Positions 9,224-9,486 of a DNA stretch of 40,805 nt are shown in pieces (position 1 is the first letter of the stretch; the number at the start of each line of letters is the position of its first letter). Where the stretch lies: contig JAURPH010000014.1 in the NCBI GenBank assembly GCA_030835345.1, forward strand, positions 1 to 40,805, given 5' to 3'. Both the position numbers and the translations under genes were made by a program. The notes below the pieces were generated by a model. That model was not told where the DNA came from. It made no database searches and saw only the letters and a program-made list of their open reading frames with translations. Origin of the DNA: Thermodesulfobacteriota bacterium (lineage in GTDB: Bacteria > Desulfobacterota_D > UBA1144).

Positions 9224-9424
9224 TTATTGGTTAACAGCTCTTCTGTGCTTAGATTGGTTTTCTGGTCTCCCAAAATCTAAACCAACTTTAGCTGCCCAGT
9301 TTTGATGTCCTGCAACATGGCCTGCATATCCAAGAGCTTTTTGTGGATCATGAGCAGATTGAGCAAAATCTTTGCTAACTTGCCTGGCCCAGTTACGCTG
9401 TGGTGAATTGTGATTATCTGGCAT
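9224..9424 (-). CDS. Small basic 66-residue protein with an internal repeat, unknown function
   Basis: I know no family for this protein. It is hydrophilic and rich in Gln, Asn, His, Ala and basic residues, with no signal peptide or membrane segment. Two segments 31 residues apart resemble each other: RNWARQVSKDF (10-20) and QNWAAKVGLDF (41-51), sharing NWA, V and DF, so it may be a duplicated helical motif. It has all the marks of strong expression: a near-consensus promoter (TTGAAT, 17 bases, TACAAT), a perfect ribosome site AGGAGGTG 6 bases before the ATG, and its own terminator. Its codons look less A+T-driven than its neighbours. A structural or nucleic-acid-binding role is conceivable but unproven. 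Confidence 0.8.
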   Translation of the reverse strand: MPDNHNSPQRNWARQVSKDFAQSAHDPQKALGYAGHVAGHQNWAAKVGLDFGRPENQSKHRRAVNQ

Positions 9425-9445
9425 AGTGCACCTCCTGATATATAA

Positions 9446-9474
9446 ATTGTATCAAAAGGTCTTTTTAAATTCAA
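9446..9474 (-). promoter_or_regulatory. Strong sigma-70-type promoter of the 66-residue gene
   Basis: On the minus strand TTGAAT (9474-9469) and TACAAT (9451-9446) are separated by exactly 17 bases. Transcription would start near 9439, giving a 5' leader of about 15 bases that holds the AGGAGGTG ribosome site. The element lies between the end of the ferredoxin gene and the 66-residue gene. Confidence 0.65.
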
Positions 9475-9486
9475 CAAATAAGAAAA

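Follow-up and report, generated by a model that had tools for sequence, protein, structure and literature searches.

The window analysed here, a stretch of 40,805 nucleotides, is contig C10 of a 0.97-Mb genome with 31% GC (G000). Its minus strand carries an open reading frame at 9224..9424 (stop included) that, translated from 9424 to 9224, gives a 66-residue protein, MPDNHNSPQRNWARQVSKDFAQSAHDPQKALGYAGHVAGHQNWAAKVGLDFGRPENQSKHRRAVNQ. The frame is supported by its translation, by conservation in the family and by the pattern of substitutions over codon positions. Upstream, on the same strand, a −35 hexamer TTGAAT (9474-9469) lies inside a conserved block GTTGAATTTAAAA (9463-9475) and is separated by 17 bases from a −10 hexamer TACAAT (9451-9446), which is preceded by TGA within the extended −10 element TGATACAAT (TG-N-TACAAT, 9446-9454). 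The earlier note had pointed to a promoter with this spacing. It is present, but promoter matches at 9 of 12 positions are not above chance in this AT-rich window (37 observed against 38.0 ± 6.3 expected), and it is noteworthy because it is conserved in relatives, the match by itself being unremarkable. TG-N-TACAAT is kept in 14/14 relatives, and column identity in an alignment of 14 genomes anchored on the −10 element reaches 93% in the GTTGAATTTAAAA block and 96% in the extended −10 block, compared with 74% in the spacer and 57% further upstream.

A Shine-Dalgarno sequence, AGGAGGTG (9429-9436, minus strand), ends 4 nt before the ATG and is exact, as had been claimed for it; relatives carry AGGAGGTG, TGGAGGTG or AGGAGGG. 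It is one of only 8 eight-base matches among 1006 predicted ORFs, while 383 of the 1006 have three or fewer matching bases, which makes it fair to say that many genes here lack a ribosome site. Judging by eye, the ORFs with seven- or eight-base matches include what we take to be GroEL, HU, acyl carrier protein, ribosomal and glutamine synthetase genes. Downstream, an intrinsic terminator with a 10-plus-4-pair stem-loop runs into a stretch of U's (9204-9169, minus strand), just beyond the interval 9224-9474 that the earlier note had assigned to the cassette and its private terminator. Hairpin and U-run occur in 13/14 relatives, and the form is kept while the sequence is largely replaced between genera. 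The description of a self-contained cassette with its own promoter, ribosome site and terminator thus stands, and extends across the family.

The earlier note also took this design to signal an abundant protein. The Shine-Dalgarno match is comparable to those of the presumed GroEL, HU, acyl carrier and ribosomal genes, and from the predicted strength of promoter and ribosome site the protein is likely to be abundant. Codon usage lends no support (rank 369/1013 for codon adaptation; p 0.49 against synonymous resampling), but the bias is weak, with ribosomal genes ranging only from 0.64 to 0.77 compared with a median of 0.66, and the test has little power because ribosomal genes barely differ from the median. 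The literature consulted yielded no metatranscriptome evidence.

Distribution, conservation and selection

The gene is present in single copy, and at the same locus, in 14/14 genomes of its family, the marine pelagic Candidatus Dadabacteria. The named relatives are marine metagenome-assembled genomes and a single-cell genome, several of them labelled Candidatus Dadabacteria bacterium UBA1144. The protein is absent from all 44 genomes of other families in the class and was not found in about 330 further sampled bacteria, where eight weak matches looked like unrelated or interrupted frames. As candidate homologues, the weak matches L015, L016 and L043-L050 were rejected as unrelated or broken frames. 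Phage records and IMG/VR did not contain the protein. Searches of Pfam, NCBIfam, PHROGs, PADLOC and the PDB yielded no usable match, and a Pfam scan returned no family up to an E-value of 10, in agreement with the earlier remark that no family was known. Within the databases and genomes covered, it is well supported that the protein forms a lineage-restricted orphan family. Far from being an isolated oddity, the gene marks the whole family of marine pelagic Dadabacteria.

Selection on the gene is strongly purifying. Substitutions summed over all pairs of relatives number 628, 580 and 1849 at codon positions 1, 2 and 3, respectively. Among relatives dN ranges from 0.013 to 0.25; the closer pairs, with dS of 0.46-0.97, give dN/dS of about 0.015-0.13, and in the other pairs dS is saturated. 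The protein is usually the most conserved of its neighbourhood: it is 97, 94 and 91% identical in L018, L021 and L023, against 39-80% for the neighbours, and 82-86% identical in L024-L027, against 30-75%. Only in L028 (74%) and L030 (71%), which are more divergent, does one neighbour exceed it (77% and 80%, respectively). Taken together, the cassette is a vertically inherited, single-gene transcription unit of marine pelagic Dadabacteria, and we regard it as near certain that the gene is real.

A shared promoter and a candidate small RNA

A 24-position consensus, built from the cassette promoter alone, was used to scan the genome. Only one other site lay within three mismatches, at C3:20503, and the reversed pattern gave none that close. 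This site precedes no ORF; it lies before a candidate small RNA of about 70 nt with two hairpins and an intrinsic terminator (G000:C3:20473-20584, plus strand; L077:473-584). The small RNA is conserved in 12/14 family genomes, with a GNRA-type hairpin loop in several members, and was not found outside the family. It matches no Rfam family at gathering score, and indels among family members disrupt any reading frame in it.

When the promoter pattern was searched family-wide, 32 sites were obtained: 14 before the 66-residue gene, 12 before the small RNA, four (all from one genus) before the same membrane-protein gene, and two in continuous coding frames. The reversed control gave two. A matrix built from the two groups scores 35.5 and 33.8 bits at both sites and at most 17.0 bits elsewhere, a contrast that is partly circular. 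The composite promoter is conserved family-wide at just two sites, those of the 66-residue gene and the small RNA. The common promoter may reflect a dedicated regulator or just a strong promoter design that both share. Of the targets predicted for the small RNA by duplex energy, the one with the lowest value (−30.8) falls within the 16S rRNA region; the others are barely beyond shuffled controls (best −27.0 to −27.5).

Two further elements were observed. In genus g4 only (L140, L154 and L129 near position 1500; G004:C5:81109), a similar promoter, TTGATA..TGTTATAAT, is located ahead of the gene for a small, presumably DoxX-like membrane protein. At L077:898-1015, on the plus strand, there is a 20-codon ORF, MDLGGRWDYLADSHVNGLPP, with ends able to form a hairpin together; a terminator-like stem and a T-run follow it, and this element may be another small RNA or a tiny gene.

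The encoded protein and its possible roles

The protein is small, soluble and basic (7.4 kDa, pI 10.2, net charge about +4), lacks Cys and Ile, and is among the four most hydrophilic predicted proteins of the genome (GRAVY −1.27). It is built from two copies of the motif [RQ]NWA[RA]xV[SG]xD: repeat unit 1, RNWARQVSKDFAQS, spans residues 10-23 (9356-9397, minus strand) and repeat unit 2, QNWAAKVGLDFGRP, residues 41-54 (9263-9304, minus strand). The internal duplication at 31-residue spacing proposed earlier was borne out, since the best ungapped self-match, which scores 41 where shuffles average 18.7 (p = 0.0004), lies at offset 31, and this offset was best in 12/12 family members tested. An HMM of the 14-residue motif recovered both copies and no others in the six-frame translated genome. 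Structure prediction of the two-repeat unit, suggested in the earlier note, was run with AlphaFold on the 66-residue protein (12 sequences); the resulting model (pLDDT 52) was too poor to use and gave no Foldseek match. Tryptic peptides of the protein would include ALGYAGHVAGHQNWAAK and DFAQSAHDPQK.

Side-chain nitrogen, at 0.67 per residue, ranks third among 1013 predicted proteins (median 0.32), and the other proteins that top this list are, by inspection, presumably for the most part (small) ribosomal ones. The high value is notable because, in marine pelagic Dadabacteria, the C/N ratio of the proteome is raised (PMC8115339).

We tentatively favour, at somewhat less than an even chance, the reading of the protein as a lineage-specific RNA- or ribosome-binding protein. 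The two-motif protein would be made in quantity, each NWA unit would contact RNA, most plausibly on the ribosome, and the whole would be a factor associated with the ribosome or RNA in stoichiometric amounts. Pointing this way are its family-wide presence at a fixed locus, the purifying selection and its conservation above nearly all neighbours; its high side-chain nitrogen and hydrophilicity, in what looks by inspection to be largely ribosomal company; and the small RNA driven by the twin of its promoter. Counting against it, the protein has no homology to RNA-binding or ribosomal families, its charge would be modest among ribosomal proteins, with N, Q and H in place of K as the enriched residues, its codon usage is ordinary, and its poor AlphaFold model matches no fold.

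The RNA- or ribosome-binding reading also draws on the distribution of the hibernation factor HPF/RaiA (PF02482), which silences the ribosomes it binds during starvation. HPF is absent from 14/14 carriers of the 66-residue protein, including G000, where a PF02482 search found nothing, and every one of the 44 non-carriers in the class has it, even one with a genome of 1.2 Mb. Ten of the 14 family genomes without HPF have a completeness of 90% or more and a contamination of 5% or less. HU, by comparison, is kept in all 58 genomes of the class. Hibernation factors are known to vary widely and to show little conservation from one lineage to the next (PMC10901736). HPF is likewise a small soluble factor, found across the sister families, and its presence in the class is exactly complementary to that of the 66-residue protein, which suggests replacement; the latter has no S30AE domain and no sequence relation to HPF, and a shared role is something we only infer. 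The weight of this complementarity is limited because on the tree it amounts to one event, within a lineage from which many genes disappeared, and streamlining confounds it. The specific version that we favour, in which the protein came to protect ribosomes once HPF/RaiA had been lost from the lineage, is possible but doubtful in itself. Very doubtful is the further step by which the protein and the small RNA would be a co-regulated pair, perhaps one ribonucleoprotein, replacing HPF in ribosome dormancy upon genome streamlining.

The E. coli ribosome modulation factor RMF offers another point of comparison, being of similar size (55 amino acids), basic and lineage-restricted, and a short GY.AG-like stretch can be seen by eye in the 66-residue protein. 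Kinship was rejected: hhalign aligned four columns with a score of 9.6, and shuffled-column controls averaged 9.3 with a maximum of 17.6 (one RMF sequence was used).

Among other explanations, the protein could depend on a partner, as an adaptor or a metal-binding subunit within an enzyme or membrane complex peculiar to the lineage; the 2Fe-2S ferredoxin or the glutaredoxin encoded nearby would be an example of such a partner. From lysA through ferredoxin, cassette and membrane protein to glutaredoxin, the gene order is conserved family-wide, and residues H25 and H36 are invariant. The cassette, however, has its own promoter and terminator, and the protein has no Cys. The cassette is also not tied to the ferredoxin, because L021 and L027 retain it while the interval between lysA and the cassette contains no 2Fe-2S ferredoxin match in either. 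A link to proteorhodopsin was rejected, since a rhodopsin occurs in just 6/14 carriers. We consider an adaptor role possible but on the whole improbable.

A further candidate role is that of an architectural protein on the nucleoid or DNA, working together with HU. Such a role would suit a small, basic, abundant-looking protein encoded in a conserved single transcription unit. Each family genome, however, already has two to three HU-type genes elsewhere, and the protein matches no DNA-binding family, including the Bac_DNA_binding domain of HU/IHF (PF00216). We regard this role as unlikely.

It is quite unlikely that the protein is a hydrophilin against stress or desiccation, mostly unfolded and protective like those of the KGG/Con-10 group (YciG; PF10685). 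Such proteins are small and hydrophilic with internal repeats, as is the 66-residue protein, whose GRAVY and low AlphaFold confidence would fit, and its DPQKA..AG..G.Q stretch recalls YciG by eye. PF10685 nevertheless matches the protein in no genome; the matches to this family in the class miss the locus and none pass the cut-off, and the hhalign score with YciG (11.8) falls within column-shuffled controls (maximum 16.3). Half of the residues (33/66), both Trp included, are invariant, unlike in low-complexity hydrophilins. A regulatory RNA with an incidental ORF, to which the short transcript between a strong promoter and a terminator and the solely sub-threshold Rfam matches of the cassette might point, is extremely improbable and already contradicted by codon-level evidence, as third-position substitutions dominate, dN is far below dS, the frame is intact in 14/14 genomes and the ribosome site is conserved.

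Marine pelagic Dadabacteria have a cosmopolitan distribution in the ocean (PMC8115339). In a lineage pressed to save nitrogen, a nitrogen-costly protein that is among the slowest to evolve in its neighbourhood and unmatched in the libraries searched must earn its keep. Together, its gene and a conserved small RNA with the same promoter offer a two-gene regulon open to testing, in a lineage without detected Hfq, whose Sm fold (PF17209) was matched in none of the 58 class genomes, G000 included. If the RNA- or ribosome-binding reading holds and the protein is ribosome-bound, it would add one more to the lineage-specific solutions for ribosome dormancy.
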